In this document: positions 4,156 through 27,019 of the stretch, in pieces
How the letters are laid out: the number at the start of each line of letters is the position of its first letter
How positions within the stretch are numbered: position 1 is the stretch's first letter
DNA from: Streptomyces sp. NBC_01454
GTDB lineage: Bacteria > Actinomycetota > Actinomycetes > Streptomycetales > Streptomycetaceae
NCBI RefSeq assembly: GCF_036227565.1
Contig: NZ_CP109462.1
Coordinates: 124,001-188,000 of the forward strand
Reading direction: 5' to 3'
Length of the DNA: 64,000 nucleotides
Position numbers and translations under genes: made by a program
The notes under the pieces: model-generated
What the model was told of the DNA's origin: nothing
The model's database searches: none
What the model saw: the letters and a program-made list of their open reading frames with translations, nothing else

Positions 4156-5000
4156 CCGACGGGGAGCCGACGGCCATGTACGCGCCGCCCGTCGACGAGA
4201 ACGACCTGCGACGCCTCCTCTGCGCGCGGGACGAAGCTGCCCGCGCGCTGGGCGTAGCCGTCGCCGGTCCGCTGCGGTGGGGCTACCAGGGCCGCACCCT
4301 CGGACAGGCCGCCGAGCACCCGCTCCACCGCCGATGCTGGCTACGTGTCCAGTCCGCCCCCGCGGGCCGGGCCGGCGGGAAGCACTGGCTGGGCGCCGAG
4401 CAGTCGGCCTCGGCGTTCCCGACGGTCCGTCGCCCCGCCCTCCTCGCACTCCACGACCACACCACCGGCTCTGTCGCCTTCCGCGCCGAGCTCACCGAGT
4501 TCGTCACCGCTCCCGTGTGCTCGCCCGAGCCGGTACTCCGCGCCGAGCTCCGGCTTCCCGACGCCTGGTGGGCGAACCTGCGAACCGAGCTCACCACCAT
4601 CGCGGCCACGCCGACCGGCCGGATCGCCGTCCGCCAGGAGTGGATCGACCGTGCGGTGCCCCAGTACACCGGCCGCCCCGCCCCCGCGATCACCCGCTGG
4701 ACCACGGCTCACGGCGACCTCCACGCCGCCAACATCACCGGGGAGGGCCCGTGGCTGCTCGACTTCGAAGGATTCGGCCGCGCGCCCGCCGGCTACGACC
4801 CGGCCATGCTCTACGCCTACTCGCTCCTCGCCCCCGCGACCGCCGCCCGCATCCGCACCGAGTTCCCCGTGCTGGACAGCCCGACCGGGCAAACCGCCCT
4901 CGTAGTCGTCGCCGCGGAACTCCTGCAGTCCGCCTCCCGCGGGGACCACCCGGAACTTGCCCCCGCGCTCCAGGCCCTGGTCGCCTCCCTCGTCCTGTAG
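4152..5000 (+). CDS. APH-family phosphotransferase (kinase fold)
   Basis: 282 residues from a GTG overlapping the previous stop. The catalytic loop HGDLHAAN (187-194) and the metal-binding DFE (204-206) are the hallmarks of the aminoglycoside/choline kinase superfamily. The N-lobe is divergent and the invariant lysine is not obvious. The family phosphorylates small-molecule hydroxyls; the substrate here cannot be told. It ends the four-gene operon that starts at 1275. Resistance is possible, but the operon partners suggest a metabolic or signalling task. Confidence 0.8.
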   Translation: MTDGEPTAMYAPPVDENDLRRLLCARDEAARALGVAVAGPLRWGYQGRTLGQAAEHPLHRRCWLRVQSAPAGRAGGKHWLGAEQSASAFPTVRRPALLALHDHTTGSVAFRAELTEFVTAPVCSPEPVLRAELRLPDAWWANLRTELTTIAATPTGRIAVRQEWIDRAVPQYTGRPAPAITRWTTAHGDLHAANITGEGPWLLDFEGFGRAPAGYDPAMLYAYSLLAPATAARIRTEFPVLDSPTGQTALVVVAAELLQSASRGDHPELAPALQALVASLVL

Positions 5001-5129
5001 CTCACGGCCGGGAGAAGCAGGCTGGACTGACACGTCGCCCACGATGGCCCTGGACGGCTCTCGGAATCTGATTTTTCACAGCAGCCGGAAACGCCACGAG
5101 CATCCCAACCCCACTCCTACGGTGCACTC

Positions 5130-5561
5130 GTGACCCATTGCGATCCGGCGACGACCGCCGCACTCGACCAGCTTTCCGCCGCCCACCGCACGGTCAAGGA
5201 CCTCGCCGTCCGCGCCATGGGACCCGGACACAGCGGCCCCCTGGCGGACCTCCCGGCCTGGTTCCAGAAAGCCCTGCTGGACGCCTACACGACGCCGGGC
5301 TTCACAGCGGGGCCGTGCACACACCTGGCCGCAGGCCGCGGGCCCCAGCCGGTGATGGTGTGGGCCGAGACACCGACCCGGGCCCGCTGCGCACCGTGCA
5401 ACGAACGTGACCAGCACCGCCGGACCTGCGCCGAATGCGAACGCTCCGGCTCCGACAACTTCCGCGACTGGACCTTGCGCGGGGCGGAGATCGGCATCGG
5501 GATCCTGTTCACAGCACTGCGCTGCCCCGACTGCGCCGAAGGACGAGGAAGCACTCGGTAG
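5130..5561 (+). CDS. Cysteine-rich putative zinc-ribbon protein
   Basis: 143 residues from GTG 5130. The C-terminal half carries CAPC, CAEC and CPDC pairs plus a lone Cys in PCTHL, a pattern fitting one or two zinc ribbons. The N-terminal half is helical with no known motif. No Shine-Dalgarno precedes the GTG, and a TACGGT element lies 8 bases upstream, so a leaderless transcript is conceivable. I do not recognise the family. Confidence 0.6.
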   Translation: MTHCDPATTAALDQLSAAHRTVKDLAVRAMGPGHSGPLADLPAWFQKALLDAYTTPGFTAGPCTHLAAGRGPQPVMVWAETPTRARCAPCNERDQHRRTCAECERSGSDNFRDWTLRGAEIGIGILFTALRCPDCAEGRGSTR

Positions 5562-6110
5562 CCCGACAGAAGCCAGTCCTCGTCGATGCGCGAGCAGTTC
5601 CCCAGTCAGTGCCCGCACCGACGGCCAAGCGGCCTCTCCCTGAGGTGCCTCCGCGCCGAGAGCACCGCGGCGCACGCAGGGCCTGGGGACAGGCAGAGCC
5701 GCCGGGGACGGGGGAGGGGAGCGGTGGGCGGGGCTCGATCCCGTCCGCTATCCACACGGTGACGGAGCCCGGCCGACAAGGCACGAGCCAACTCGCAGGA
5801 CTTGGCGCCGGGGCGGGCCCTGTCGCCCGTCGGCGATCTCCGCAACCCCGCAGCGGCGATCTCGGCTGACGGCTTCGCCCGGACGAGAGGTCCGTCCATG
5901 CTCAGCATGTTGCGTAATTGGTTTTATCTCCGTAGAGTTATAGGGCGCTGAAGGGCCACTCATACCGCCCTCCCTGAACGACGCGTTCCCCGAACGGGCG
6001 GAGGCAGCAGCGCTGCGAGCTATCCGTGCTCGGGAGCTGCCAGATCCTCTGGAACGGCAGGCCTCGGGTTACGGCGATCTCGCCGAATGGCATCAACAAG
6101 AGGTTTTGAA
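5562..6110. other. Intergenic region upstream of the PH-domain operon
   Basis: About 550 bases without a supported gene. Open frames here have no Shine-Dalgarno and no recognisable product. The only clear signal is the promoter-like element at 5910-5938. Confidence 0.45.
5910..5938 (+). promoter_or_regulatory. Candidate housekeeping promoter for the PH-domain operon
   Basis: TTGCGT (5910-5915) and TAGAGT (5933-5938) are separated by 17 bases, a good fit to the streptomycete HrdB-type consensus, in a locally AT-richer patch. It lies about 170 bases upstream of the start at 6111. Not tested. Confidence 0.45.
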
Positions 6111-6668
6111 ATGGCTCGAATGATCACGCCGGCGCCACCCTTCACTCTGCAGAGCGCTGAGTTGACCCGGCACCCGGCCCGCACCGTTTTCGTCAACCGC
6201 ATCGGGTCCGCCGTCGCTCTGCTCACCAGCAGCCTCGTTCTCGGGGGACTGGCCGCCGCGGTCACCACCATCGTCTACATGGTCATCTCCAAGACCGACG
6301 ACTGGCACGACCTGTTGAACTGGTGGGACCCGAGGATGGCACTCGTCTGCCTGATCCCCGCCGCGATCTTCGCCTGGCGCTGGAACCGCATCAAGGTGGC
6401 CTGGCACTTTCGCGGCTACCACCTTGGCGACGAAGAACTCTACGTTCGGACCGGACTGCTGAACCGCAGCCTCACCGTCCTCGCCTACGCCCGCATCCAG
6501 GAGGTTGCCGTCCACTCCGGCCCCATCCAGCGCCACTACGAACTCGCAACCCTCACCGTGAGCAGCGCCAGCGGCAGCGAGCTCATCGAGGACCTCGATC
6601 CCCTGGTCGCACACGAACTGCGTGACAAGCTGACCGAGCTCGCCCGTGTGCGGAGGCTGCCGGTATGA
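6111..6668 (+). CDS. Bacterial PH-domain (bPH2, YdbS-like) membrane protein
   Basis: 185 residues. The ATG at 6111 has AAGAGG at 6098-6103; an earlier ATG at 6087 has no Shine-Dalgarno. Two hydrophobic segments (about 39-63 and 80-92) precede a bPH2 module recognisable from 'YHLGDEELYVRTGLLNR' and the following 'VLAYARIQEVAVHSGPIQR'. YdbS/YdbT pairs of this family are membrane proteins of poorly known role in Firmicutes and actinobacteria. It overlaps the next gene by ATGA, forming a two-gene operon. Confidence 0.85.
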   Translation: MARMITPAPPFTLQSAELTRHPARTVFVNRIGSAVALLTSSLVLGGLAAAVTTIVYMVISKTDDWHDLLNWWDPRMALVCLIPAAIFAWRWNRIKVAWHFRGYHLGDEELYVRTGLLNRSLTVLAYARIQEVAVHSGPIQRHYELATLTVSSASGSELIEDLDPLVAHELRDKLTELARVRRLPV

Positions 6669-7924
6669 GCCAGCCCATCGAAGGCCGCCTCCACCCGGTC
6701 ACCCCGCTCCGGCGCAGCTGGGCCGTCCTCCTCGGGCTCGGCACCCTCGTTCACCAGCAGCACGACCTCTTCAGCGTCGGCACCACCGGTACCAAGGACA
6801 AGATCGACCTACCGCTGTGGGCGGCATGCGCCGGTGCAATCGCGGCCGTCGCGGCCGTCGTCGGCTGGTTCGCCGCCGCCTGGTGGCAGAGCCACTACAG
6901 CCTCGACGGTGATGTACTCGGCTACCGCAGCGGACTGGTGTTCAAGATCCGCCGCCAATGCGAACTCCACCATGTGCAGAGCGTCGACATCGTGCGCCCG
7001 TTCCTCGGAAGGCTCATCGGCGTCTGCACCCTGCGCGTCGTCATGTCGGGCACGACCATGACCCTCACGTACCTCACCCTCAACCAGGCGAGGTCCCTCA
7101 AGGCACGGATCCTGGCAGAGGACACGGCCGACGAACTCCTCTACCGGGTCAGCACACAGGACCTGGCCATCTCCCTCCTGCTCGACCTCGGCACCAACAT
7201 CCGCTCACTCGTCCTGGCGATGTTCGGGCTCCTCCCGTTCATCCTCTCCGGCCAGCTCCTCGCCCTGTCGACGCTGATCGCCTTCGCCCCGAAGGTCTGG
7301 AGGCTCACCGGCAAGCGGCTCTTCGTCTACAGCGGCTGGTCCGTCACCCGCACCGCCGAAGGCTGCTACCGCACCGACTACGGGATGTTCGACACCCAGC
7401 AGTACACCTACCGATCACCTCGTGTCGCAGCCATCGAACTCCACCAGCCGCTCCTGTGGCGGCGATTCGACTGGGTCAAGATCAAGGTCGCCGTCGCCGG
7501 TTCCTCGGCCCCCGGCATCCTCATCCCCGTCTGCCCCAGGACCGTCGCCGAGAAGCTGGTGCTCCACCTCCTCGGCCCGGACGCCGTGACCCACTTGCAG
7601 GACCCGATCCCGGCACCCCGCGAGGCGAAATGGGCCACCCCCTTCCACAGGGCCCTCGGCTACCGCCTCGAACAGGGCTTCTTCACAACCTGGGACGGGC
7701 TCTTCCTCCGCAACCTCACCACGGTGTGCCCCACCGCGCGGATCCAGACCGTCTCCGTCGAACAGGGCCCCTGGCAACGCCGGCTCGGCCTGAACAGCGT
7801 CCACGCCCACATGGCAGGCGGTGAGAATGTAATCGCAGCACACCGCACCAACAGCGAGTCGGCGTGTCTCGCGCCCGACCTGTACGCCGCCTCACAACGG
7901 CACACCCAGGCCGCCCACCCCTGA
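6665..7924 (+). CDS. Multi-domain bPH2 membrane protein (YdbT-like)
   Basis: 419 residues. Two N-terminal transmembrane segments (about 17-30 and 54-76) lead into a bPH2 module ('GYRSGLVFKIRRQCELHHVQSVDIVR'). A further hydrophobic pair near 174-208 is followed by two more PH-like stretches ('AVRI'-type strands near 'YRSPRVAAIELHQPLLWR' and 'NLTTVCPTARIQTVSVEQGPWQRR'). Three repeated modules are typical of YdbT. Coupled by ATGA to its single-module partner, with which it probably forms a complex. No enzymatic residues are seen. Confidence 0.85.
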   Translation: MSQPIEGRLHPVTPLRRSWAVLLGLGTLVHQQHDLFSVGTTGTKDKIDLPLWAACAGAIAAVAAVVGWFAAAWWQSHYSLDGDVLGYRSGLVFKIRRQCELHHVQSVDIVRPFLGRLIGVCTLRVVMSGTTMTLTYLTLNQARSLKARILAEDTADELLYRVSTQDLAISLLLDLGTNIRSLVLAMFGLLPFILSGQLLALSTLIAFAPKVWRLTGKRLFVYSGWSVTRTAEGCYRTDYGMFDTQQYTYRSPRVAAIELHQPLLWRRFDWVKIKVAVAGSSAPGILIPVCPRTVAEKLVLHLLGPDAVTHLQDPIPAPREAKWATPFHRALGYRLEQGFFTTWDGLFLRNLTTVCPTARIQTVSVEQGPWQRRLGLNSVHAHMAGGENVIAAHRTNSESACLAPDLYAASQRHTQAAHP

Positions 7925-8142
7925 CGGGGAAGCCCCGTTCCCTCAACGGCCGACGACCGGGCACGCCCACCCCCTCGCACCCGCCCGTGTGGACATCAAG
8001 TCCCGCGGGCGGGTGCAGCTGTACGACGGGCCGGGCGCTCGGTCGAAACGACTCAGAGCGGCATGCGCGTCGGGAGCGCGACACGAACGTGATCTTGACC
8101 GTCTCCCCAACCTGGCCGTCCCGCTCCTGCCACCATTGGCCA

Positions 8143-9775: not shown

Positions 9776-10939
9776 CTACTGCATGGGTTGTACGGCCTGG
9801 AGGATGACAGCGAGCGTTGTCCAGTCCACAACGTGGGGGCCGTCGGGGCGCAGGATGTCGGCGAGGCGGGCGACTTCGACGTGGGTGTGCTCGGTCTCGT
9901 CGGCGTTGCCGTGGCTGGTCGTGTCGGCCCGCAGTTGCTCGAGTTCGTGGGTGCTGAGTTCGACGGCATACGCGGTCTGGGTGTGGGCGGACAGGGTGCC
10001 GGCCGCCTGGCGGGTGCCGGCGAGGTGCAGTCGGGCCGGGGAGAGGGGCAGGCCGGTCTCCTCGGTGAACTCTGCCGCGGCCGTGTGCCGGGGGTCGCCG
10101 GGCTTGGCGCTGGATCCTCCGGGGACTTCGCGGATGTAGGCGTCCGGGGTGCGGGCGGGAGAGCGGAACTCGCGGACGAGCACGATCTCGGTGTCCTGCC
10201 AGCGGGGCGCGGGCCGGTAGGCCACGACGCTGGTCAGGTCGGGCCTACCCAGGACGACCTCGTTGTCCTTCACGCGGTCCTCGGCCGCGATGTGGATGCG
10301 GGCGGCATACGCCCACAGCAGGACGTGGGACCGGTGGGGGCCGACCCGGAAGGTCCAGGAGATCCGGCCGCCGAGAAGCGTGTTGCCGGCGTCCTCCTGG
10401 GCGGCGAGCCAGGCCCGGAAGGAAGGGGTTCGCCACAGTAGGAGCGGTACGTCGTGCTGTCCGGCGGTGCGAGGGGCGCCGGGGCCGATGCGTTCCAGGG
10501 CCAGGGCGATGGCCTGGGGCAGGGTCTCGGCGATGGGGACCTTGAGATCCTCTGCGATCCGGCGCAGACGTCGGCCGGCGGGGTCTGTGCCGTCGGGGCA
10601 GCCGAGGACGGATCGGCCGTCGTCCAGGTCGCCTTCGGGCCAGCCTTCGGCGGCCGGGCCGGACTGGGGGTGCCAGTGGATGATCTCGTCGGCGCGGGCG
10701 CGCTGGGTGCGGTCCCATTCCAGTCGGCTCGCGGCGTCCAGGTGCGGGGCGCCGCCGCGGGCGTGGGGGAGGAGCACGACGAGGGTGCCGGGCTGGCGCC
10801 ACTGGAGGGTCGCTTCGTGGAGGGCCAGTCGGGACGACTCCGGATTGAGTGGGGCGCCGGTCAGGTAGAGGCTCGCGGTGTAGAACTCGGGCGGCTCTTC
10901 CCCGGCGTAGACGGGCTGCACGTCGCTGGGCGCGGTCAC
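9776..10939 (-). CDS. Deoxyribosyltransferase-like domain fused to a Nudix domain
   Basis: 387 residues from GTG 10939, chosen because the N-terminal domain begins there. Residues about 10-130 ('[14 protein letters not shown]', '[19 protein letters not shown]') resemble the nucleoside 2-deoxyribosyltransferase-like domain often fused to Nudix in Streptomyces. The C-terminal part is a Nudix fold whose box is imperfect: EFTEETGL keeps the metal-binding Glu pair, but the Arg and first Glu of GX5EX7REUXEEXGU are replaced. It probably acts on a nucleotide or nucleoside. A decayed copy of its middle lies at 26732-26960. Confidence 0.7.
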
Positions 10940-11072
10940 GGGCTCTCGATACTTCCTTCCGGTGCTCAGCGCCGCTCGCGAGCGGGATCGGCGCGGCCGG
11001 CGGTGGATCTGGTGACAGTGTTCCAGGGTGACCTCGCCGGTTGACGGTAGAGCTAGATATCGGATTTCCGGC

Positions 11073-11579
11073 TCATCCGTGCCTGCCGAGTGTCGGCAGC
11101 CCACCCGAGACCGTTCGAACACTGCGTCCGCGCCGGGTTGACCGCTTGGTCATTAGCAGTTGACGGGCCATTGCGCTCCACTGCCCTGCCTCGTCTTGGT
11201 CCCCTGCGGCTCTCCGCTCCCGGCCGGCCGCGAGCATGGCCGCCCGGGTCTTCCCGTACAGCGGGTCCGCTATCGAGGGCACCGCTCCGCTGATCCGGAC
11301 CCCGCCTTCCACGCCCCGCCGGCAGAGCACCAGACGTCTGTCCGCTCCCTCCGCCAGGCGCACGGCGTACAGACCCGCACGGCTGTTGCCGAGCGAGATC
11401 TTCCCGAGTTGTATGAGGAGTTCCGGGTCGCACGGCAGCAAGACTTGATCGGCTTGGGTGTCGCGAGCGGGAGCTAGTGACACAAGGTCGAGCAGCTCAC
11501 CATCCCGTCGAACCCACATGCCGAGGGTGGGCCATGCAACGGCGGGGTCGAGAGCGGGGTGGGGTGCCGTCGCGTCCAT
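11073..11579 (-). CDS. Hypothetical protein
   Basis: 168 residues from ATG 11579, preceded by AGGAG with 8-base spacing. The sequence has a compact N-terminal part ('[20 protein letters not shown]') and a basic C-terminal tail ending TLGRHG. No recognised motif. It lies between the pentapeptide-repeat gene and the Nudix gene on the same strand, so co-transcription with the putative precursor peptide upstream is possible, although gaps of 260 and 133 bases separate it from its neighbours. Confidence 0.6.
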
Positions 11580-11619: not shown

Positions 11620-11841
11620 TCACGGCGCATTCGGCGGTCGGCCGAGCCAGAAGGCGGCGACGGAGGGCTGGTCAATGCCAGTGGTGGAGCCGTCGTGGGG
11701 CAGGAATTCGGTCGGGGCGACGTACCCGTCGTCTGGTTCGAGGCGGATGCGCAGGCAGCGCAGCGGGTGTCCTGCGGCGACGTATTGGCGTACGTCGTCG
11801 GTGTGGGGGTAGCGCTGCTCCGGCTTGGGGCAGGTGCGGGG
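11620..11841 (-). pseudogene. ORF in frame after the UAG stop of the pentapeptide-repeat gene
   Basis: Directly after the TAG at 11842-11844 the same frame stays open for 73 codons to a TGA at 11620-11622. It reads like real protein (for example YPHTDDVRQYVAAGHPLRC, then GIDQPSVAAFWLGR near the end). It contains no ATG, GTG or TTG. It may be a separate small gene that lost its start, or a C-terminal extension reached by stop-codon readthrough. Function unknown. Confidence 0.45.
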
Positions 11842-12528
11842 CTACTTGTCGTCGAGGTCTTCGCCGAAAGCGACGTCCAGCTCGGCGGTGAGAGCTTCGG
11901 CCAGCTGGAGTGTCTGGGCCTGGTCGATGACGATCTGTTGGAGCGAGGCGAGGCCGCGGATCTGGGAGAGGTCGTTGCCCCGAAGGTCCAGGCCGCGGTA
12001 CTTCCCGCCGTCGAATTCGGTCAGCCGCAGGTCGCAGTCTTCGATCAGGGCGGCGCCCAGGTCGGTGGCGGCGAAGGTGGTCTCGCGCAGAGAGCACTTG
12101 GAGAAGATCACGGGCCCGGTGGCCCGGACGCGGGTGAGGGTGCTGTAGTCGAGCTTGCAGTTCTCGAACAGGACGTTGTCGAGCGTGACGTCTTCGAGCG
12201 TGGCGCCCATCAACTTGCAGTCGCGGAAGACAGCCCGGGATACCTTGCTGTCGGTCCACTGTAAGGAGGCCAGGTCACAGCCGGAGAGCTCCACAGAGTC
12301 GACGCGGAGGTTCTCCAGCCGGGTGCGCTGGGCCTTGAGGCCGGTGATCCGCCCGTCCAGCAGGTGAGTGTCGGCCAGGTCGAGGTCCCTGAGATCGGCG
12401 TCGGCATAGTGGAACTCCGCCAGCCGGCCACGGCCGCCCTCCAGCGAGGTGACGTTGGAGAGGTAGAGGCCCGGCTCGTCCAGGGCGGGGAGAGTGACGC
12501 TCGTGCGGCGGATCGTGCGGGTGTCCAT
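11842..12528 (-). CDS. Pentapeptide-repeat protein
   Basis: 228 residues from ATG 12528. The central part shows five-residue periodicity of the A(D/N)LXX type ('ADADLRDLDLADTHLLDGRI', later 'FRDCKLMGATLEDVTLDNVLFENCKLDYSTL'), which forms a right-handed quadrilateral beta-helix. There is no signal peptide. Such proteins can mimic DNA, as in gyrase protection, or act as scaffolds. It lies 73 bases downstream of the candidate RiPP precursor on the same strand, so an immunity or scaffold role is a reasonable guess only. The frame continues past the stop (see 11620-11841). Confidence 0.85.
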   Translation of the reverse strand: MDTRTIRRTSVTLPALDEPGLYLSNVTSLEGGRGRLAEFHYADADLRDLDLADTHLLDGRITGLKAQRTRLENLRVDSVELSGCDLASLQWTDSKVSRAVFRDCKLMGATLEDVTLDNVLFENCKLDYSTLTRVRATGPVIFSKCSLRETTFAATDLGAALIEDCDLRLTEFDGGKYRGLDLRGNDLSQIRGLASLQQIVIDQAQTLQLAEALTAELDVAFGEDLDDK

Positions 12529-12601: not shown

Positions 12602-12781
12602 CTACGTCTTCTTGTACCAGTTGTCCCAGGTCGGGCGGTTGTCGAAGGAGGCCGGGTACTTCGCCCAGTTGTCCCACGTGGGCCGGTTGTCCCACGCTGC
12701 TTCAACGATCGCCGGGGTCAGGACGTCGTGCTCGCCCGCTCTCGCCTCGAATGCTCTGAGCCCCGCACGCACACTCTTCAT
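12602..12781 (-). CDS. Putative multi-core RiPP precursor peptide with (W/F)DN repeats
   Basis: A 59-residue gene from ATG 12781 with AGAGGCGG about 5-6 bases upstream, ending TAG 12602-12604. The first 29 residues (MKSVRAGLRAFEARAGEHDV then LTPAIVEAA) look like a leader. The last 30 contain two copies of DNRPTWDNW joined by AKYPASF and ending YKKT, so four aromatic-Asp-Asn motifs occur (three WDN, one FDN). Repeated aromatic-X-Asn triplets are a feature of peptides cyclised by radical SAM enzymes to cyclophanes (triceptide type). No such enzyme is adjacent; the nearest is at 24524. Coding is well supported; the RiPP call is inference. Confidence 0.65.
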   Translation of the reverse strand: MKSVRAGLRAFEARAGEHDVLTPAIVEAAWDNRPTWDNWAKYPASFDNRPTWDNWYKKT

Positions 12782-12881: not shown

Positions 12882-13511
12882 ATGAAGCCCTTCGAGTTCC
12901 AGCATGCCCAGGACGTGTGGCCCAAGGGCGAGACCCTGCTCCACGTGTACGTCACCCCAGGTGATCAAAACCTTGAGCTGGCCGCGCTCGTAACCCGGGC
13001 GCAATCGGTCTTGCAGGACTTTCCGATCACCTGCGTCGAGAGCCGCTGGCTTCACATCACCGTCGAACAGATCACCGACGCTGTCGGAGCGGACATCTCC
13101 CCGGCCGCACGCGACGCCCTCGTGGAGGAGCTGGGGAAACGACTCGCTGACGTCGAGCCGTTCGACATCATGATCGGATCGCTGGAGTCGTACGCGACCG
13201 GAGTGATCGCCGACATCCATCCGGACGGGCCCCTCAACGTTCTCCACAGCACCGTTCGCGCCGCGATCCAGGCCGTGCGCGGGCCCGACGCGACGGGCTA
13301 CCCCACCAAGGTCCCTCATCTCACCATCGGATACGCAGCCGACGAATGCGACTCCGACCAGGTTCAGCGCAAGCTGCGCAACGACGTACGCCCGGGCCAT
13401 GCCCCGATGCGGGTGGACGCCGTTCACCTCGTGGACGTCACTGCGGACACCCAGGCCAAGACGATCACATGGGATCACGTCGCGACGATCCCGCTCGGCG
13501 CCAGCCGCTGA
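12882..13511 (+). CDS. 2'-5' RNA ligase/2H phosphoesterase family protein
   Basis: 209 residues from ATG 12882 (an ATG two codons upstream is equally possible). Two HxT/Sx motifs, LHITVEQ (about residue 51) and PHLTIGY (about 149), define the 2H phosphoesterase fold that opens 2',3'-cyclic phosphates or related phosphodiesters. It is divergent from the precursor-peptide gene, and the 100-base region between them must hold both promoters. A second member lies at 46496-47110 in the large operon. Confidence 0.85.
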   Translation: MKPFEFQHAQDVWPKGETLLHVYVTPGDQNLELAALVTRAQSVLQDFPITCVESRWLHITVEQITDAVGADISPAARDALVEELGKRLADVEPFDIMIGSLESYATGVIADIHPDGPLNVLHSTVRAAIQAVRGPDATGYPTKVPHLTIGYAADECDSDQVQRKLRNDVRPGHAPMRVDAVHLVDVTADTQAKTITWDHVATIPLGASR

Positions 13512-18776: not shown

Positions 18777-19030
18777 GGTCGCCTACGGCACTGACAATCG
18801 GGCCTGGCAGCCGGGACAGTGAAGTGAGGCGATCCTTGGGGAGCAGCATCCTTCGTCGGAACCGGAGGCGTGGCGCCCAGCCCGCGGCGCGCGCGTCCTG
18901 GCACTGAAAGCCCGCTCGGGCTGGCCCTGTCTGCGTCACAGCGTCCTGCTCGGGCATTGCCCCTCGTGGCAGGCCACGGCGCGGGTACCGTTCCAGTAGA
19001 GGCTGCGTTCCAGGAGGGTTGAGGTCGAGG

Positions 19031-20284
19031 ATGCCGTACGAGATCGAGGAGCAGGAGGCGATCGGCCGCAGGATCAAGCGGCAGAGGCTCAATCTCGGCA
19101 TGACGCAGGCCGATCTTGCTGCCGCGGTCGGCAAGACCCAGGGCTGGGTCTCCAAGGTCGAGGCAGGCAAGATCGAACTCGACAGCGCCGGCCTGATCAA
19201 CCAGATCGCGGCCGCGCTGCACTGTCACCCGAATGTGCTGCTGGAGCGGCCGTACGTCGGAACGATCGGCGAGAACCAGTGGCAGGCCGCGGCAGCGTCC
19301 ATCGTGCGCGAGCTGCGCCGCTACGACCTCACCCCGATCTTCGACGGCGACCCGCGCTCGTCCGCAGAGCTGTGGCAGGACATGACCCGGCTGCACCGCC
19401 TGCGCGATGCCGCGGCGAACATCGCGATCCTCAAGGCCCTGCCCGACCTGTTCCGCGAGACACGGGCCCTGTCCGAGGTCTCCTCAGGGCACGAGCGCGA
19501 GGAAGCGTTCGCCGTGTACGCGGTCTGCTGCAAGTTCGCCCACACCGCCGCCCACGCCCTCGGACATCCCGAACTCATCGCCATGGCCTGCGAGCGCGCG
19601 GCGTGGTCCGCGCAGATGTCCGGCGACCCGCTCATGCCCGCCGTGGCCGACTGGATGCGGGTGTGGGACATGTGGGCGACTGCCGACTGGCAGGACTCGA
19701 TCGCCCTGTCCGACAAGGCGCTGCGCAGTGTGCAGCGCGAGTACGACCGCGGCGACCCGCTGGCACTGCGCGTGTGGGGCACGCTCCAACTGCGGGCCGC
19801 GGTCTCCTGCGCCCGAGGCGGCAACACGAGCGAGGCCGAGGACCGCCTGGCGCATGCTCGAGCGGCCAGCGACCGGATGGACGCAGCGGCCGGCCCGCCC
19901 GCCTACGACCGGCACTCGCTGACCTTCTCCACCGGCAACGTCCAGATCCACCGGGTCAGCGTCGCGCTCGAAGCGGGCGACCAGGCGAAGGCACTTGACC
20001 TCAACCGGCGTGCCGACCCAGGCCACTTGGCGCCGCTGCCCAAGTCCCGCCGCGGCCACCACCACATGGACCTGGCGCGGGCGTGGCTCTGGGACGGCAA
20101 CCGGGACCAGGCGATTGCCGAGCTGGAGGAGGCGGAGCGCATCGCCCCGCAGCTCGTACGCAACCACCCCATCGCCCGCGCCACTCTCCGCAAGATCGTC
20201 TACGCCGAACGCGTCGCCACGCGCGAGAAGCTCCGGGGCATGTCCAACCGTTTTCACCTCGATGACCAGGCGGTATTCCCCTGA
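19031..20284 (+). CDS. XRE-family HTH regulator with TPR-like C-terminal domain
   Basis: 417 residues from ATG 19031. Residues about 9-65 form a classical XRE HTH ('IGRRIKRQRLNLGMTQADLA' then 'VGKTQGWVSKVEAGKIELDS'). The remaining ~340 residues are helical TPR-type repeats, the part resembled by the HTH-less proteins at 1275 and 2234. It stands first in the 19-28 kb cluster and is its likely regulator, perhaps sensing a peptide or metabolite. GGAGG lies 13 bases upstream, rather far; a TTG at 19019 is an alternative but sits only one base from it. Confidence 0.85.
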   Translation: MPYEIEEQEAIGRRIKRQRLNLGMTQADLAAAVGKTQGWVSKVEAGKIELDSAGLINQIAAALHCHPNVLLERPYVGTIGENQWQAAAASIVRELRRYDLTPIFDGDPRSSAELWQDMTRLHRLRDAAANIAILKALPDLFRETRALSEVSSGHEREEAFAVYAVCCKFAHTAAHALGHPELIAMACERAAWSAQMSGDPLMPAVADWMRVWDMWATADWQDSIALSDKALRSVQREYDRGDPLALRVWGTLQLRAAVSCARGGNTSEAEDRLAHARAASDRMDAAAGPPAYDRHSLTFSTGNVQIHRVSVALEAGDQAKALDLNRRADPGHLAPLPKSRRGHHHMDLARAWLWDGNRDQAIAELEEAERIAPQLVRNHPIARATLRKIVYAERVATREKLRGMSNRFHLDDQAVFP

Positions 20285-20323
20285 TTCATATTCGCCGGTA
20301 ACCGCACCCCTACCGTCAGTTGT

Positions 20324-20635
20324 ATGACGGGAAGTCGCACACCCCAACTCGCGCTCCCCACAGCGGAGTTACCCGACAGTCGGCCGACGTGGACTCCCCT
20401 GCGCGGGGACCTCGCCCACGACTCCTCAGCGAGCCGCACCGGCGTCGTGGTGGCCCTGCCCGAGGACATCGGCGCCAACGTGTACCACCTGTGCCCGGAG
20501 GGTGGCGGGGACCCGTGGCCGGCCTTGCGGGACAACCTCACGCCGTCCTCGGATGGCGCCGAGGACGGGCTCTTCCTCGACGAGGCAGCGAGGCCGCCCG
20601 GCGGGTTCGCCCCGGACGGGGGCGGTACACCGTGA
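20324..20635 (+). CDS. Small hypothetical protein
   Basis: 103 residues from ATG 20324, 39 bases after the regulator gene and overlapping the next gene by GTGA. The protein is Pro/Gly/Asp-rich, especially at the C-terminus, with a compact stretch 'TGVVVALPEDIGANVYHLC'. No family recognised. Its position right after the regulator and its low complexity make a peptide-substrate role conceivable, but nothing specific shows it. Confidence 0.5.
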   Translation: MTGSRTPQLALPTAELPDSRPTWTPLRGDLAHDSSASRTGVVVALPEDIGANVYHLCPEGGGDPWPALRDNLTPSSDGAEDGLFLDEAARPPGGFAPDGGGTP

Positions 20636-20844
20636 GCAGGCGTCCTGATCTGCCCGGCATGGCCGCCCGTCTGCGAGTGAAGGACCTCGGCGGGGACAGC
20701 GTCCTCACGGCTGTGTGGGTCGCGCTGCACGTGCCTGCCGCGCTGCTGCTCGGCCAGGTCCTGACCGATCACGCGACAGTTACCGCTGTGGTCCCGTCGC
20801 CGGGGGCCGCCGTGATGGCCGACGACACCGCGCCACCCGAATGA
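20632..20844 (+). CDS. Small hypothetical protein
   Basis: 70 residues from a GTG overlapping the previous stop; it overlaps the next ATG as well. A mildly hydrophobic stretch 'SVLTAVWVALHVPAALLLGQVL' could be a weak membrane or amphipathic helix. No known family. Confidence 0.45.
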   Translation: MSRRPDLPGMAARLRVKDLGGDSVLTAVWVALHVPAALLLGQVLTDHATVTAVVPSPGAAVMADDTAPPE

Positions 20845-21248
20845 GCTCCGGCCCTGCTGCCGGTGAGGCGTCCGCCTGGCATCCCCCGAGGCCGACGGGC
20901 ACCGACCGTCCCGGCGTCAGGGCCGGCACCAAAGTCCATGCCGTCCAGTGGGCGGCCGGAGACCTCGCCCACCCGGACGGGCGCGCTCAGCCCGGCGCCC
21001 GTCCGGCGACGACGGAGGGCATAGTGCTCACGCACACCAAGCCCCAGCAGAAGGACATCACGTACGACCCCAAGAAGCAGGAGTTCGTCTGGCCGATCAC
21101 CGTGCACCGGCTCGACGGCACCACCGAGGACACCAGCCTCGTCATCACCCCTGACCAGTTCGCGGTCCTGGCCGTGCAGATCGACCGGGCGGAGGACCGG
21201 CGACGGGAACACCTGAGCGGCCCGAGCACCTTCCGGGAGGGCCTGTGA
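20841..21248 (+). CDS. Small hypothetical protein
   Basis: 135 residues from the overlapping ATG 20841. The first ~60 residues are low-complexity; the second half (from GTG 21024: 'VLTHTKPQQKDITYDPKKQE') looks better conserved, with beta-strand character, so the real start may be 21024, giving 75 residues. It overlaps the kinase gene by GTGA. Function unknown. Confidence 0.45.
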   Translation: MSSGPAAGEASAWHPPRPTGTDRPGVRAGTKVHAVQWAAGDLAHPDGRAQPGARPATTEGIVLTHTKPQQKDITYDPKKQEFVWPITVHRLDGTTEDTSLVITPDQFAVLAVQIDRAEDRRREHLSGPSTFREGL

Positions 21249-22414
21249 CCACCATCGTGGACGCTACTGCCCTGGCCGACTTCTGCTCCGGTCAGATACA
21301 GGACGCAGGGTCCTCGCTGTGGCCGGGCGAGGAGATGGTCCTTGGGGCGCACGTGCCGAGCGTCACCGGGTACGTCCAGCAGACAGAGGTCGGCGGCCGG
21401 CCCTTGTTCGCCAAGCACAGCCTGCTCGGTGTCTCGCTGATGCGCGGCTCCTACGGCAGCTGGGAGAAGGTGGCGGCGGAGCAGGCCGCGTACGCCGCCT
21501 CGCCCGCCTCGCTGCTCCAGCGTGAAGCCGCCCAGCTCGATGCCCTGGCCGTGGGCGGCCTGGCCGTCGCGCGTGCGGCCGGATGCGGCGGCGGGGTGCT
21601 GTTCACCGAGCCGGTCACCGGGCCGACGCTGGCTGACCTGGTCTTCAAGTCGCCCAAGCAGACCGGCGAGTTACTGGGCCGAACGCTGAGCGCGCTGGAG
21701 GTTCTCCAGCGTCCCGTTGTGGCCGAGCAGGTAGACCGGGCTGCGATCAATGAGCGCGGCATCGACGCGACGTTCCGCCGCAAGTTCAACGGGATCTCCG
21801 GCCGGGCCTACCTCGATCATCTCGGCCAAGCCCGGCTGGGGGAGCGGACCGGGCACTGCGTCGCAATCGTCCTGCGTCAGGTCATCGCGAGGCTTCTCCG
21901 GCTTCGCCTCGCCCCGGCGCTCGGGCCCGCCCAGGTCTTGTACGGCGACCTCAAGCCTGAGCACGTGTTCTTCCCCGACGGCCCCGATGAGCTGCCCGTG
22001 TTGATCGACCCTGGCCTGCAGCGCGGTCCCGCGCACGCGGATGCCGCCAAGCTCGTCTCCCGCACGGTCCTCTCCCTGATCGCAGCGCCCCCGCCGGACG
22101 GGACGACGGCGATCCTCGACGGCATCGCCGCCTTCGTCCAGGAGCAACTGCGGCCGATGCGCCGTGCGACAGGCGGGCTGTACCTGCGGAAGCTGCTGGT
22201 GACGTGGCTGATGGATACCACCAACATCACCACCACCTACCTGTCCGCTCCTACGGGGCTGCCGCTGCCCGAGCACGCCGGGGCCGTCGTCGAACGAATC
22301 GAGGCGGTCTGCACGCTGCTGGACCAGGTCAGCGCCCTGCTGATGGCGGACGCCGAGCCTGCGGCCTCATGGCGCCTGGCCCTGAGCCACGCGGCGAAGG
22401 CGGCCAACCGATGA
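21245..22414 (+). CDS. APH/protein-kinase-fold phosphotransferase
   Basis: 389 residues from the overlapping GTG. 'QVLYGDLKPEHVFF' is the catalytic loop (GDLKPEH) and 'LPVLIDPGLQRG' the metal-binding segment, with DPG in place of DFG or DxD. The N-lobe Lys is probably in 'RPLFAKHSLL'. It is predicted to phosphorylate a small molecule or peptide made by the cluster. Overlaps with the genes on both sides show strict co-translation. Confidence 0.75.
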   Translation: MTTIVDATALADFCSGQIQDAGSSLWPGEEMVLGAHVPSVTGYVQQTEVGGRPLFAKHSLLGVSLMRGSYGSWEKVAAEQAAYAASPASLLQREAAQLDALAVGGLAVARAAGCGGGVLFTEPVTGPTLADLVFKSPKQTGELLGRTLSALEVLQRPVVAEQVDRAAINERGIDATFRRKFNGISGRAYLDHLGQARLGERTGHCVAIVLRQVIARLLRLRLAPALGPAQVLYGDLKPEHVFFPDGPDELPVLIDPGLQRGPAHADAAKLVSRTVLSLIAAPPPDGTTAILDGIAAFVQEQLRPMRRATGGLYLRKLLVTWLMDTTNITTTYLSAPTGLPLPEHAGAVVERIEAVCTLLDQVSALLMADAEPAASWRLALSHAAKAANR

Positions 22415-23313
22415 GCGGGTTCACCGTCGGGTTGATCGGAGCCGGCGCGGTCGGGCAGAGCGTGGCCGCACTCCTGGTCCAGGAACGCTGGTGCACCTGC
22501 CTCCTGATCGCCGCCCGCACCCTGGAGTCCGCGACCGGACTCGTCACCGATCTTGAGGACATGCGGGAGATCACCCTGTCCTCCGTACGAGCGGAGCTCT
22601 CCCCGGTCGCCGCGATGCGCGCGGCCGGCGCCATCGTCGCGTTCCCGCGCGCCAAGTTCACGAACAGCGCCACCAGAGACGTCCGGATGGCGGGCCTGGC
22701 CGCGAACGCCCCGCTGATCAGCTCCTTGGCCGAGGAGCTGGCCGGCTACCCCGGACACGTCATCGTGGTCACCAACCCGGTCGACGTCCTGACCCGGGTC
22801 TTCGCGACCGCCGTCGGTCGGGCCGCTCGGGTGTACGGCATCGGGTCCAGTACCGACTCGGCCCGCTACCGACTCGCCCTCGCCCTCCACCACCGAGTCC
22901 CGGCCGCCGCCGTACGCGGCTGGGTGATCGGCGAGCACGGCGACGGCGCGGTCATCTGCGCCTCGACCACCACGGTCAACGGCCGTGCTGCCGACGTGCC
23001 GTTGGAGTATGTCCGGGCCCAGATGTCCGCATGGCCGCGTCGGATCAACGCAGGGATCGGCCGCACCCGCTGCGGCCCGGCCGGCGCGATCCTGAGCGCG
23101 CTGCGCAAGACGCTCGGCATCAGCAACGGCACCGAGGTGCTCTCCGTCAACCACGACGGCGTGTGGCTCGGAATCCCGTTGCAGTTCTCTGCCAGCCGCC
23201 CCACCGTGGCCCTGCCCGACCTCGATCCTGATGAACAGCGGCAGTTCACCGCCGCCCGCACCAAGCTCGACTTCGCCTACCAGCAGACCCTTCAGGGAGT
23301 GACCGCGTGCTGA
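22411..23313 (+). CDS. Lactate/malate dehydrogenase-family protein
   Basis: 300 residues from the overlapping ATG. The Rossmann motif is GLIGAGAVG (residues 7-15), 'VVTNPVDVLT' is the family's NPVD element, and 'IGEHGDGAV' carries the catalytic His. The canonical substrate Arg region ('AFPRAKF') is altered from the usual AGxPRKPG, so the 2-hydroxy acid used may differ from lactate. Placement between a kinase and an HPr-kinase-like protein points to a dedicated substrate, not central metabolism. Confidence 0.85.
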   Translation: MSGFTVGLIGAGAVGQSVAALLVQERWCTCLLIAARTLESATGLVTDLEDMREITLSSVRAELSPVAAMRAAGAIVAFPRAKFTNSATRDVRMAGLAANAPLISSLAEELAGYPGHVIVVTNPVDVLTRVFATAVGRAARVYGIGSSTDSARYRLALALHHRVPAAAVRGWVIGEHGDGAVICASTTTVNGRAADVPLEYVRAQMSAWPRRINAGIGRTRCGPAGAILSALRKTLGISNGTEVLSVNHDGVWLGIPLQFSASRPTVALPDLDPDEQRQFTAARTKLDFAYQQTLQGVTAC

Positions 23314-24443
23314 GCGCCACCCGAATCCACGCCGACACGGCGGCCGTCACGGTCGTCAGCGACACCAAGGACATCACCGAGTGGGCCCTGCGCTACTTCG
23401 GCGGCTGGTGGAACGCCACGGCCGTGGATGCTCCGGTCGCGCCCGGCGGCAGCATCGCCGAAGGCGGCGCCCTGCTCCTGGCCGACGTCGACAGCAAGCG
23501 CCTGGCGGACATCGAGACCCTGGTCGGCGACCACGACTACAACGAGGTCGACTACGCGAACGCCCGAACCCTGGTCGCCCGGCACGAGGACGGCGCGATC
23601 TACGCCATCCAGCCCGCCGAACGCCTCGCCTACCACTACGACCCGGCCACCAGCCGGCTCGTCATCGTCGGCACCCACACGCAGTCGGTCGCCGTCGCCG
23701 CCTCCCGCCTCGCCCGCGAACTCATCCGTGGCCAGCTGCTGCGCGCCGGATTCCACATCCTGCACGCCTCCTGCGTCGTCCGCGACGGCCGCGCGCTCCT
23801 CACCTTCGGGCCCAAGGGCGCAGGCAAGACCACCACCGCCCTCCTGCTCGCCCGCGAAGGGTACGACCTCCTCGCCAACGACCGGGTGTTCGCTCGCACC
23901 GAGGACCAGGGCCTGCGGATCCTGCCCTGGCCGTCGGCCGCCGCGATCGGCTTCGGCCTGCTCGAATCCGCCAGCCTGTATGAGCCGCTGCGCGCCCACG
24001 TCCTGGAGGGCGAGCAGATGCACCCCACCCAGGACCAGCGCGTCACCGACGCCCTGCACGCCGGCAGCACGAAGCCGATCTGGAACGCCAAGGGCAAGGA
24101 ACTGAAGCCCCAGTTCTTCCCCGACCAGCTCTCCTCGATCCTGGGCATGACGCTCGCCACCCAGGCCCACGCCACCGCGCTCCTCTTCCCCCAGATCGAC
24201 AGGGACGCCGAACCGCACGTGATCGACATGCCCCGAGCCCTGGGCGAGGAGGACTTCTTCACAGGTAAGACCGAGGACCGCTACCCCGACATCTTCCACC
24301 TCGCCCCCACGAAGGCCGCCCCGGCAACCGACCTCGCCGACCGGCTCGCGCAGCTGCCGCGCCGCGCCCTCGTCCTCAACCACGACAGCCGTACGTCCGC
24401 CGAACTCCTGGCCAGGACCGCCGAGGAACTCCTCGCCGAGTAG
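23307..24443 (+). CDS. HPr-kinase-like P-loop protein
   Basis: 378 residues from GTG 23307, overlapping the dehydrogenase gene by 7 bases. A Walker A motif GPKGAGKTT is at 168-176, followed by 'LLANDRVFAR', matching the HprK C-terminal kinase fold ('HASCVVRDGRALLTFGPKGA'). Related kinases phosphorylate peptides in some lasso-peptide clusters, while HprK itself acts on a Ser of HPr. The ~150-residue N-terminal domain is not recognised. A strong hairpin follows the gene. Confidence 0.75.
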   Translation: MLSATRIHADTAAVTVVSDTKDITEWALRYFGGWWNATAVDAPVAPGGSIAEGGALLLADVDSKRLADIETLVGDHDYNEVDYANARTLVARHEDGAIYAIQPAERLAYHYDPATSRLVIVGTHTQSVAVAASRLARELIRGQLLRAGFHILHASCVVRDGRALLTFGPKGAGKTTTALLLAREGYDLLANDRVFARTEDQGLRILPWPSAAAIGFGLLESASLYEPLRAHVLEGEQMHPTQDQRVTDALHAGSTKPIWNAKGKELKPQFFPDQLSSILGMTLATQAHATALLFPQIDRDAEPHVIDMPRALGEEDFFTGKTEDRYPDIFHLAPTKAAPATDLADRLAQLPRRALVLNHDSRTSAELLARTAEELLAE

Positions 24444-24459
24444 AAGCGCCGCAGATCTG

Positions 24460-24487
24460 GCCGGACTCCGCACCCCAGGAGTCCGGC
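24460..24487 (+). terminator. Intra-cluster hairpin (terminator or attenuator)
   Basis: GCCGGACTCC (24460-24469) and GGAGTCCGGC (24478-24487) form a perfect 10-bp stem with an 8-base loop, 17 bases after the stop at 24443. There is no T-run, as usual in Streptomyces. It probably reduces read-through into the radical SAM gene or stabilises the upstream mRNA. Confidence 0.6.
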
Positions 24488-24523
24488 TGGCCCACCATGG
24501 AACACAACCGAAGGGAACAGCTC

Positions 24524-25417
24524 GTGACCATCGCACCCGAAGCCCCGACAACTCCTCTCGTCCCCAGCCTTCTTGAGCTGGAGATCACCCAGCGGTGCCA
24601 GCTCACGTGCGCGTCGCACTGCTACGCCGCGGCGGGCCCGACCCAGGGGCACGGCGTCATGACCGGCAAGGACTGGAAGCGGGTCATCAGCGAAGCCGCG
24701 GCACTCGGCGTCAAGAAGATCCAGCTGATCGGAGGCGAACCCACGCTCCACCCCGACTTCGCCGAACTCGTGGAACACGCCCTCGCAGAAGGGCTCGGAG
24801 TTCACGTCTACTCCAACCTGTACCGCGTCCGCGCCGAGCACTGGGCGCTTTTCACCCGCCCCGGCATCTCCCTGGCGACGTCCTACTACGCCGACACCGA
24901 CGAGGGACACGACCAGGTGACGGGCCGCACGGGCTCCCACGCCGCGACCCGCGCGAACCTCATCGAGGCACACCGCCGCGGTATCCCCGTGCGGGTGGGA
25001 ATCGTCGACGTCCTCGACGGGCAGCGCGTCGAGGAGGCCCGCACGGAACTGGAAGACCTCGGCATCACCGAGGTGCACATCGACCGAGTCCGAGGCGTCG
25101 GCAACGCGGCCAAGGGCCCCGGCCTGCCGTCCACGTCCGAGCTGTGCGGCCGGTGCGCCACCGGCATCGCCGCGATCCTGTCGGACGGCACCGTCACCCC
25201 CTGCGTACTCGGCCGGTTCCTCCCGGCCGGGCAGATCAAGGACACGCCGCTGGAGCGGATCTTCAGCTCGCCGCAGTGGCAGCAGGTCGCCGCGAGCATC
25301 CCGGCCAGCCGCCACGACCCGTGCGGTCCTGACTGCGGTCCCAACGACGACAGCCAGGGCGGCGGCGGAACCTGTGGCCCCGCCGACGACGGGGTCATCC
25401 CGAGCACCGCAGGCTGA
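24524..25417 (+). CDS. Radical SAM enzyme with SPASM-like C-terminus
   Basis: 297 residues from GTG 24524, which has GAAGGGAA with good spacing; the ATG at 24497 has none. The cluster-binding cysteines are C25, C29 and C33, that is CX3CX3C rather than the usual CX3CX2C, followed by Tyr. 'IGGEPTLHP' is the GGEP SAM-binding motif. The C-terminal part has LCGRC, TPC and CGPDC, a SPASM-like set for auxiliary iron-sulfur clusters. Such enzymes typically modify peptides. Downstream is a PIMT-like methyltransferase, 13 bases away. Confidence 0.85.
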   Translation: MTIAPEAPTTPLVPSLLELEITQRCQLTCASHCYAAAGPTQGHGVMTGKDWKRVISEAAALGVKKIQLIGGEPTLHPDFAELVEHALAEGLGVHVYSNLYRVRAEHWALFTRPGISLATSYYADTDEGHDQVTGRTGSHAATRANLIEAHRRGIPVRVGIVDVLDGQRVEEARTELEDLGITEVHIDRVRGVGNAAKGPGLPSTSELCGRCATGIAAILSDGTVTPCVLGRFLPAGQIKDTPLERIFSSPQWQQVAASIPASRHDPCGPDCGPNDDSQGGGGTCGPADDGVIPSTAG

Positions 25418-25430
25418 AAGGATGTCCCCG

Positions 25431-26630
25431 ATGGACTGGGAAGCAGCAGCGCGACGGCTGGCCGCCGGCACCGTGATCCGACCCGAGTCACGCTGGTATC
25501 AGCCGCTGGCCACCACACCGCGGCACGTGTTCGTGCCACGGTGGTGGACCAAGGCCGCGGCCAGCGACAGCGAGGAGGTGTGGGAGCTGCGCGACGGCGC
25601 GAGTGACACCGAGTCGTGGCTGCGGGACGTCTATGCCGATACCACGCTCGTCACCCGCGTCGGCCCCCTCCACGCCGACCACGCCGAGGTGGGCCAGACC
25701 CTCCCCCGGGGACGAGCAGCCCGTTCCACCTCGTCCTCCACGCTGCCCGCACTGATGCTGATGATGTACCGGGCCGCGTGGATCACCGACACCTCCCGCC
25801 TGCTGCTGACCTGCGGCAGCGGCTACGGCACCGCCCTGGCCTGCGCCCGCCTCGGCGAGGACCAGGTCACCACCGTGGACGTCGATCCGTACCTGGTACA
25901 GGCGGCACGGAAACGGCTGTCCGAGGCCGGCCACCATCCGCGCGTCGAAGTCTGCGACCTGACCGGCAACTTGCCCGAGGGCACCTACGACCGGATCATC
26001 TCCACCGTCTCCGTGCCCACCGTGCCTACCTCGTGGCTGGAGGCGCTCGCCCCCGGCGGACGGCTGGTGACCACCATCGCCGACACCGGGCTGGTCATCG
26101 TCGCGGACAAAACCTCCGACGGCGGCGCCGTCGGGCACGTCGCGCCGGAGGCGGCCGGGTTCATGTCCGCGCGGCACGGCGACGACTACGACGCCACCTT
26201 CCCGGAGAACCCGCCGCTGTGGCAGACCGCCCAGCACGCCGAGGGCGAGAGCATCAGCACCAGCCGCTACCCGCTGATGTACGTCCCGGACACCTGGGAC
26301 GTACGCTCCACCCTCGAACTCCTGGCGCCTGGCATCGACCACCGCCAGAACACGGCGGACGACGGCACCCGCACCGTCTACCTGCTCCACGCCGACGGCT
26401 CCTGGGCCCGCGCCACAGCTACCGGGCGCAGGGACTCCCCGACCGTGCACCAGGGCGGCCCCCGGCGGCTGTGGGATGAGCTGGACCGCATCCGGACATG
26501 GCTCGCCGTGGACGGCGACCTCCCGATTCGCGGCGCCAAGGTGACGATCACCCCCGACGGAGCGGCCACCTTCTCTCGAAGGGGCTGGTCGTCCACCATC
26601 ATCGGCGCGACCAGCATGCTCACCCAGTGA
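25431..26630 (+). CDS. PIMT-like (FxLD-type) methyltransferase
   Basis: 399 residues from ATG 25431 (GAAAGG 9 bases upstream; an ATG at 25422 is too close). The SAM-binding glycine loop is 'LLLTCGSGYGTALACARLG', with 'VTTVDVDPYLVQAARKRL' after it, as in protein L-isoaspartate O-methyltransferases. The long C-terminal extension is that of the RiPP-associated FxLD/aspartimide-forming group. Homologues in RiPP clusters methylate Asp side chains. Two more members are in the 45-64 kb operon (51953 C-terminal domain, 58314). Confidence 0.75.
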   Translation: MDWEAAARRLAAGTVIRPESRWYQPLATTPRHVFVPRWWTKAAASDSEEVWELRDGASDTESWLRDVYADTTLVTRVGPLHADHAEVGQTLPRGRAARSTSSSTLPALMLMMYRAAWITDTSRLLLTCGSGYGTALACARLGEDQVTTVDVDPYLVQAARKRLSEAGHHPRVEVCDLTGNLPEGTYDRIISTVSVPTVPTSWLEALAPGGRLVTTIADTGLVIVADKTSDGGAVGHVAPEAAGFMSARHGDDYDATFPENPPLWQTAQHAEGESISTSRYPLMYVPDTWDVRSTLELLAPGIDHRQNTADDGTRTVYLLHADGSWARATATGRRDSPTVHQGGPRRLWDELDRIRTWLAVDGDLPIRGAKVTITPDGAATFSRRGWSSTIIGATSMLTQ

Positions 26631-26661: not shown

Positions 26662-26731
26662 ATGACACACGTTGAGCCGCCGCCGGCCGAGACGTCACCT
26701 CAGACCGTGTGGAAGTCCTCCCTGGTCTGGT
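26662..26731 (+). pseudogene. 5' end of a disrupted gene
   Basis: ATG 26662 has AGAGGGA with good spacing and reads [20 protein letters not shown] before running into the inverted Nudix-gene fragment at 26732. A gene end overlapping the CofE-like ATG (ATGA, 27020-27023) is also visible in another frame. It looks as if a small gene between the methyltransferase and the ligase was replaced or interrupted. Its Pro/Glu-rich start leaves its function open. Confidence 0.4.
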
Positions 26732-26960
26732 CCGAGAAGCGTGTTGCCGGCGTCTTCCCTGGCGGCGAGCCAGGCGCGGAGGAAGGGGCCCGCCAGAGCA
26801 GGAGCGGTACGTCGCGCTGTCCGGCAGCGCAAGGAGCGCCGGGGCCGATGCGTTCCAGCAGGGCGAAGGCCTGGGGCAGGGTCTCGGCGATGGGGAAGGT
26901 GAGATCCTCGGCGATCAGGCGCAGACGTCGGCTGGCGTCGTCTGTGCCGTCGGGGCAGCC
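26732..26960 (-). pseudogene. Internal fragment of a deoxyribosyltransferase-Nudix gene
   Basis: 229 bases match 10372-10603 at an estimated 80-90 percent identity. Read on the minus strand they give 'CPDGTD' through '[20 protein letters not shown]' and '[11 protein letters not shown]', the middle of the protein at 9776-10939. Both ends and the Nudix box are missing and the frame breaks. It is inserted in antisense orientation within the radical SAM cluster. Confidence 0.8.
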
Positions 26961-27019
26961 GCCGCCCACACCCGGCTGCTCGGGGTCCTGACCGCCCACT
27001 CCACCCGGAGTTGCATCTC

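Follow-up and report, generated by a model that had tools for sequence, protein, structure and literature searches.

AmcA peptides are covered by the public NCBIfam profile NF041721, "multiple cyclophane-containing RiPP", and their radical SAM maturases, AmcB, by the profile NF041718. The Amc name is said to come, possibly, from the work of He and colleagues in Angewandte Chemie in 2022. None of the papers listed in a literature search deals, by title and start of abstract, with AmcA/AmcB peptides, and no claim is made that they are unpublished. A chemical comparison is offered by the triceptides, whose enzymes XncB, OscB and MscB connect the ring of an aromatic residue with the beta-carbon two positions further on (i+2); Trp-Asn and Phe-Asn links are among the examples that the source gives for XncB and OscB (PMC11002830). 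From the family name and these triceptides we infer a similar cyclophane chemistry of AmcB on AmcA. AmcB of an intact locus would bind the AmcA leader. In each W/F-D-N triplet it would bond the side chain of the first residue, Trp or Phe, with the beta-carbon of the third, Asn, so that one peptide would acquire up to four three-residue cyclophanes.

The gene considered here lies in a stretch of 64,000 nucleotides from Streptomyces sp. NBC_01454, referred to below as the window. It shares with the AmcA/AmcB systems the double (W/F)DN core, a profile score above the cut-off and an adjoining pentapeptide-repeat gene, the last being a feature seen here in relatives and not known as a published criterion. 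However, the genome has no AmcB above the cut-off, the AmcA leader is mostly gone, and residues 1-17 come from another gene. The aromatic-X-Asn triplets are shared with the triceptides, but there is no enzyme at the window locus.

Core motifs and the intact loci of relatives

The reading frame at positions 12602-12781 of the minus strand has 59 codons and encodes MKSVRAGLRAFEARAGEHDVLTPAIVEAAWDNRPTWDNWAKYPASFDNRPTWDNWYKKT. Its core contains three WDN triplets and one FDN triplet, and the segment DNRPTWDNW is present twice. The triplets are WDN at residues 30-32 (12686-12694), WDN at residues 36-38 (12668-12676), FDN at residues 46-48 (12638-12646) and WDN at residues 52-54 (12620-12628), all on the minus strand. 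The initial annotation had described a 59-residue peptide with these four motifs and the two DNRPTWDNW copies, giving no strand, and the translation agrees with it in both respects. A 24-base pattern of the core, with up to three mismatches, has two matches in the genome, both within this frame, and a search of the genome with the 59-residue peptide gave a single match. The reading frame is genuine.

The NF041721 profile matches residues 21-58 of the peptide (profile positions 19-53 of 54) with 63.2 bits and an E-value of 2.2e-17, against a cut-off of 40. The sequence family, which was unfamiliar to the initial annotation, thus has a public profile. The protein search with the peptide yielded 311 proteins at E <= 1 among 354 candidates, and many of the 120 homologous proteins listed carry the NCBI name AmcA. 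In a genus sample of 295 genomes, an AmcA match was found in 15, the genome of the window among them. Judged by these matches, the window gene carries a true AmcA-family core, and the family is one already named in public profiles.

The comparison of amc loci covered the best 80 of 90 genome_contigs loci. Conservation of the repeat core in homologues had been set beforehand as a test; a double core in one frame is present in 79 of these 80 with a loose pattern, in which single changes such as FDS, FNN, WDD or WAN are permitted, and in 46 with the strict pattern (W/F)DN-WDN-FDN-WDN. An AmcB match, sometimes partial, occurs in 79 of the same 80 loci (none in L089), and a pentapeptide match, sometimes weak or on the other strand, also in 79 (none in L076). 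Two loci deserve separate mention. L073, from Streptomyces samsunensis, has AmcB and no double AmcA core in one frame. L076, a Solibacteraceae MAG contig that by its title lies far outside the Actinomycetota and is the one locus of the 80 with no pentapeptide match, matches residues 28-58 of the peptide at 70% and also has a relative of AmcB (43%).

The gene order was read in detail for three loci, L049, L053 and L055. In all of them a gene of about 484 amino acids comes first, then a NUDIX gene read in the opposite direction, and after it AmcB, AmcA, a pentapeptide-repeat protein and a 241-residue gene. The protein of about 484 residues from L053 has no Pfam match above cut-off. Scored against NF041718 (cut-off 425), AmcB reaches 502.7 bits in L006, 446.3 in L013 and 506.6 in L053. 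After NF041718 these proteins match best to GrrM/OscB (TIGR04261), a family of radical SAM/SPASM maturases, at 258.2, 230.3 and 271.5 bits, which in each case falls short of the cut-off of 310; the three intact AmcB proteins thus resemble the triceptide enzymes at this lower level. The AmcA leaders resemble each other less among distant members of the family.

The deletion junction and the chimeric N-terminus

The window locus departs from this order. On the coding strand it follows the intact order up to codon 17 of the gene of about 484 residues, and then continues with residue 22 of AmcA. The first 17 codons, MKSVRAGLRAFEARAGE (12731-12781, minus strand), match MKSAHVGLAAFETRVSE, the N-terminus of the L053 protein of about 484 residues, and they are not homologous to an AmcA leader. 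Residues 18-59 (12605-12730, minus strand) correspond to AmcA from residue 22, a His, and comprise the end of the leader and the double core. The leader that the family carries, for example MKILDRLATSDTPVVMELIATHD in close relatives, is not present in the window reading frame. The 29-residue leader-like part of the initial annotation is therefore mostly no AmcA leader, since its residues 1-17 derive from another gene. A frameshifted AmcA leader was also considered as the source of residues 1-17; no match was seen by eye in three-frame translations, and the upstream gene explains these residues.

The junction was compared by BLAST with 12 related loci, L049-L060. The left homology ends at window position 12731 in 11 of the 12 and four bases short of it in L057, and the right homology starts at 12731-12729 in 11 of the 12 and eight bases earlier in L058. 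The break at 12731 thus recurs against all 12 loci, within four bases in 11 of them and within eight in L058. In L053 the gap in homology runs from 4641 to 8000 and measures about 3.36 kb. The jump is about 3.4 kb in most loci and about 4.9 kb in L051 and L059, where there is more intervening sequence. The sequence absent from the window (about 3.36 kb) comprises amcB, the NUDIX gene, nearly all of the gene of about 484 residues and most of the AmcA leader. As shown by comparison with the intact loci, these alignments place at the junction a deletion of about 3.36 kb that removed amcB and the first 21 residues of AmcA and joined 17 foreign codons in frame to the remainder.

The 2'-5' RNA ligase family protein encoded divergently at 12882-13511 on the plus strand (2_5_RNA_ligase2, 1.5e-16) is the left-hand neighbour of the amc genes. 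In L059 a relative matching over residues 1-193 lies to the left of the start of the gene of about 484 residues; in L055 and L057 the same place holds N-terminal pieces of such a relative. By this comparison the ligase gene was brought beside amcA by the deletion. On the other side, a second deletion point is found at window positions 11823-11828, where the sequence from 8904 to 9442 of L053 has been lost, removing most of the downstream 241-residue gene.

The linear plasmid NZ_CP109456 of Streptomyces sp. NBC_01456, 385,852 bases long, carries the 1801-base query at 100% identity. The identical stretch carries the annotation amcA in RefSeq, so that the gene, contrary to what had been supposed, is in practice not missed. 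In the plasmid search, NBC_01456 matched 100% of the query and NBC_01216 87%, and three further matches covered 7-17%; the complete junction was found in NZ_CP109456 only. This plasmid may come from the same or a sister isolate, and it therefore confirms the junction independently only in a weak sense. Because NZ_CP109456 is linear and identical over these 1801 bases, the window contig (388,248 bases) probably represents a linear plasmid too, from a strain that is closely related or the same.

The missing maturase and probable parallel decay

The AmcB profile gave two matches in the genome of the window, of 67.9 and 39.5 bits, and none above the cut-off of 425. Matches below the cut-off are obtained with this profile in 10 of 14 control genomes, and they thus reflect the generic radical SAM fold. 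An AmcB protein used as query has one match in the genome, 38% over 153 residues (58-210), in a different reading frame of 437 residues. The missing 3358 bases have only 34- and 60-base matches there, while they are found at full length in two genomes of the sample, G131 (99%) and G014 (90%). An AmcB gene elsewhere in the genome, or a relocated cluster, was therefore found by neither protein, profile nor DNA searches. The radical SAM gene at 24497-25417 of the window was likewise set aside as the maturase, since the 25 best of its 41 NCBIfam families do not include AmcB.

In the 15 AmcA-positive genomes of the genus, some of which are draft assemblies, AmcB is above the cut-off in 10 and lost or broken in five. 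It is split between two frames in G038, is a fragment in G028 and G045, and is absent, generic matches apart, in G025 and in the genome of the window (G000).

The amcA gene of NBC_01216 (NZ_CP108678, WP_327378812.1) gives the nearest comparison. It lies likewise on a linear plasmid and in the same gene order, pentapeptide gene, amcA and 2'-5' ligase, with no AmcB gene annotated between or beside them. G025, which is taken as the NBC_01216 genome, has no AmcB at the cut-off (the best match, 129.8 bits, lies elsewhere), and just 146 bases of the missing stretch remain at its locus, at the AmcA end. However, this locus has deletion end points of its own, and these are not nested with those of the window: the leader DNA was kept and the upstream DNA lost, while in the window it is the reverse. 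The leader and core are in different frames, and there is no open fused frame. A broken frame in homologues had been named beforehand as a finding against the gene; the frame is broken in this related orphan locus, while the window frame is open.

A further case is seen in Micromonospora rosaria, where a second AmcA 3' end with its pentapeptide gene (L089, 7305-9023) is 90% identical to the AmcB-linked copy (L085, 6121-9037). The alignment of L089 to its sister L085 covers 6121-6804 (80%) and resumes at 7984 (90%); the stretch with the AmcB of L085 (6847-7887) and the start of AmcA is thus missing in L089. The AmcA core of L089 is preceded by unrelated residues. Either a second genus has orphaned its AmcA in a similar way, or the pattern is an effect of assembly. 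As far as the alignments go, amcB is lost in these two further loci, NBC_01216 and L089, via different deletions.

The core of the window gene carries substitutions of its own. Against L053, its 35 codons show no synonymous and four amino-acid-changing differences, and the pentapeptide gene shows 37 and 22, respectively. The counts for the core are again zero and four against L052, and 1-4 and 4-9 against the other 12 sequences. Two Tyr residues of the window core are unseen in the 119 other homologues among the 120 listed proteins. A Pro to Ser change of the core is common to P0081 and NBC_01216, the final Thr also occurs in P0003, P0022, P0053 and P0082 of the listed proteins, and two Asn positions vary in other AmcA members. 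The substitutions fit a relaxed constraint, with counts too few for a firm claim about selection.

Fate of the orphan gene and its pentapeptide-repeat partner

In the lineage of the window, the deletion put 17 codons of the upstream gene in frame with the AmcA core. The fused frame retains all four triplets and a plausible ribosome site inherited from the gene of about 484 residues, and it is probably still translatable from the start signals of that gene. Some use of the peptide is therefore possible. However, the core survives with neither the enzyme nor most of its leader, and the default expectation is thus that no product is made; the frame most likely yields an unmodified peptide and is decaying. 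Because the deletion took the putative ring-making enzyme and the gene's own leader, and fused the core to the start of another gene, we consider it about 85% probable that the window gene is an orphaned AmcA-family gene without its original N-terminus, a relic of the deletion and not an active multi-core RiPP gene. The multi-core precursor and triceptide-type crosslinking proposed by the initial annotation would both apply to the family, given NF041721 and the presumably cyclophane-forming radical SAM maturase beside its relatives. They do not extend to the window copy, which lacks AmcB and has foreign residues 1-17.

Other readings of the locus can be compared with this one. The short length of the frame might suggest a chance ORF that happens to contain repeats, but the AmcA profile match above the curated cut-off and the homologues speak against this, and its probability is negligible. 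Another radical SAM enzyme of the genome could also act in trans on the peptide as a functional multi-cyclophane precursor, given that four motifs are retained, that the radical SAM/SPASM gene at 24497-25417 is 12 kb away and that a further radical SAM frame occurs at C1:2664468. This is highly improbable. The enzyme in the window, beyond its lack of AmcB among its best families, adjoins its own maturation-type methyltransferase, the frame at C1:2664468 is the one scoring 67.9 of 425 bits, and most of the AmcA leader is gone. The exchange of leaders might instead have been a natural swap, the new N-terminus and core together serving a non-RiPP role such as that of a small regulatory or binding peptide. 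The in-frame fusion, the possible start signals from the upstream gene and the identical sequence in a second record (NZ_CP109456) are in line with such a role. In-frame joining has a one-in-three chance, however, in the related NBC_01216 plasmid the junction differs and no fused frame is open, and the two Tyr substitutions are unseen in the other listed homologues; we regard a leader swap as very unlikely.

The reading of the gene as a deletion relic carries a caution, namely that a repeat-core peptide need not mean an active RiPP locus. Annotation based on profiles says amcA for a gene that has lost its maturase and most of its leader. The junction would offer a clear case of decay of a RiPP operon with a scar defined at base level, accompanied by other routes in two further loci.

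The pentapeptide-repeat protein next to AmcA (11842-12528, minus strand, 228 residues; Pentapeptide_4, 1.5e-24) is intact, with no internal stop. It has weak matches to Qnr and MfpA, far below cut-off. It might be an immunity factor against an AmcA peptide aimed at topoisomerase, the plasmid being an immunity-only "cheater" that keeps resistance to a product of its neighbours. The idea is suggested by the repeated loss of the maturase while the pentapeptide gene can stay intact, as one uninterrupted frame in three of the five genomes with AmcB lost or broken (G000, G025 and G038). It is weakened by the splitting of this gene between frames in G028 and G045, and we hold it to be unlikely. The surviving gene would nevertheless be a cheap way to probe a role in immunity.

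A separate maturation-like cassette occupies positions 19019-26630 of the window. It contains an HTH regulator, small reading frames, an APH-like kinase and an HprK-related protein (weak matches), a radical SAM/SPASM protein and a methyltransferase. The last of these scores 245.8 bits against TIGR04188 of an ATP-grasp peptide maturase system, below the cut-off of 380. Next to the cassette, a minus-strand frame of 99 residues (26700-26999) repeats, by eye, part of the protein encoded at 9776-11122, which is annotated as a NUDIX hydrolase on NZ_CP109456, and it is apparently a duplicated fragment of that gene.
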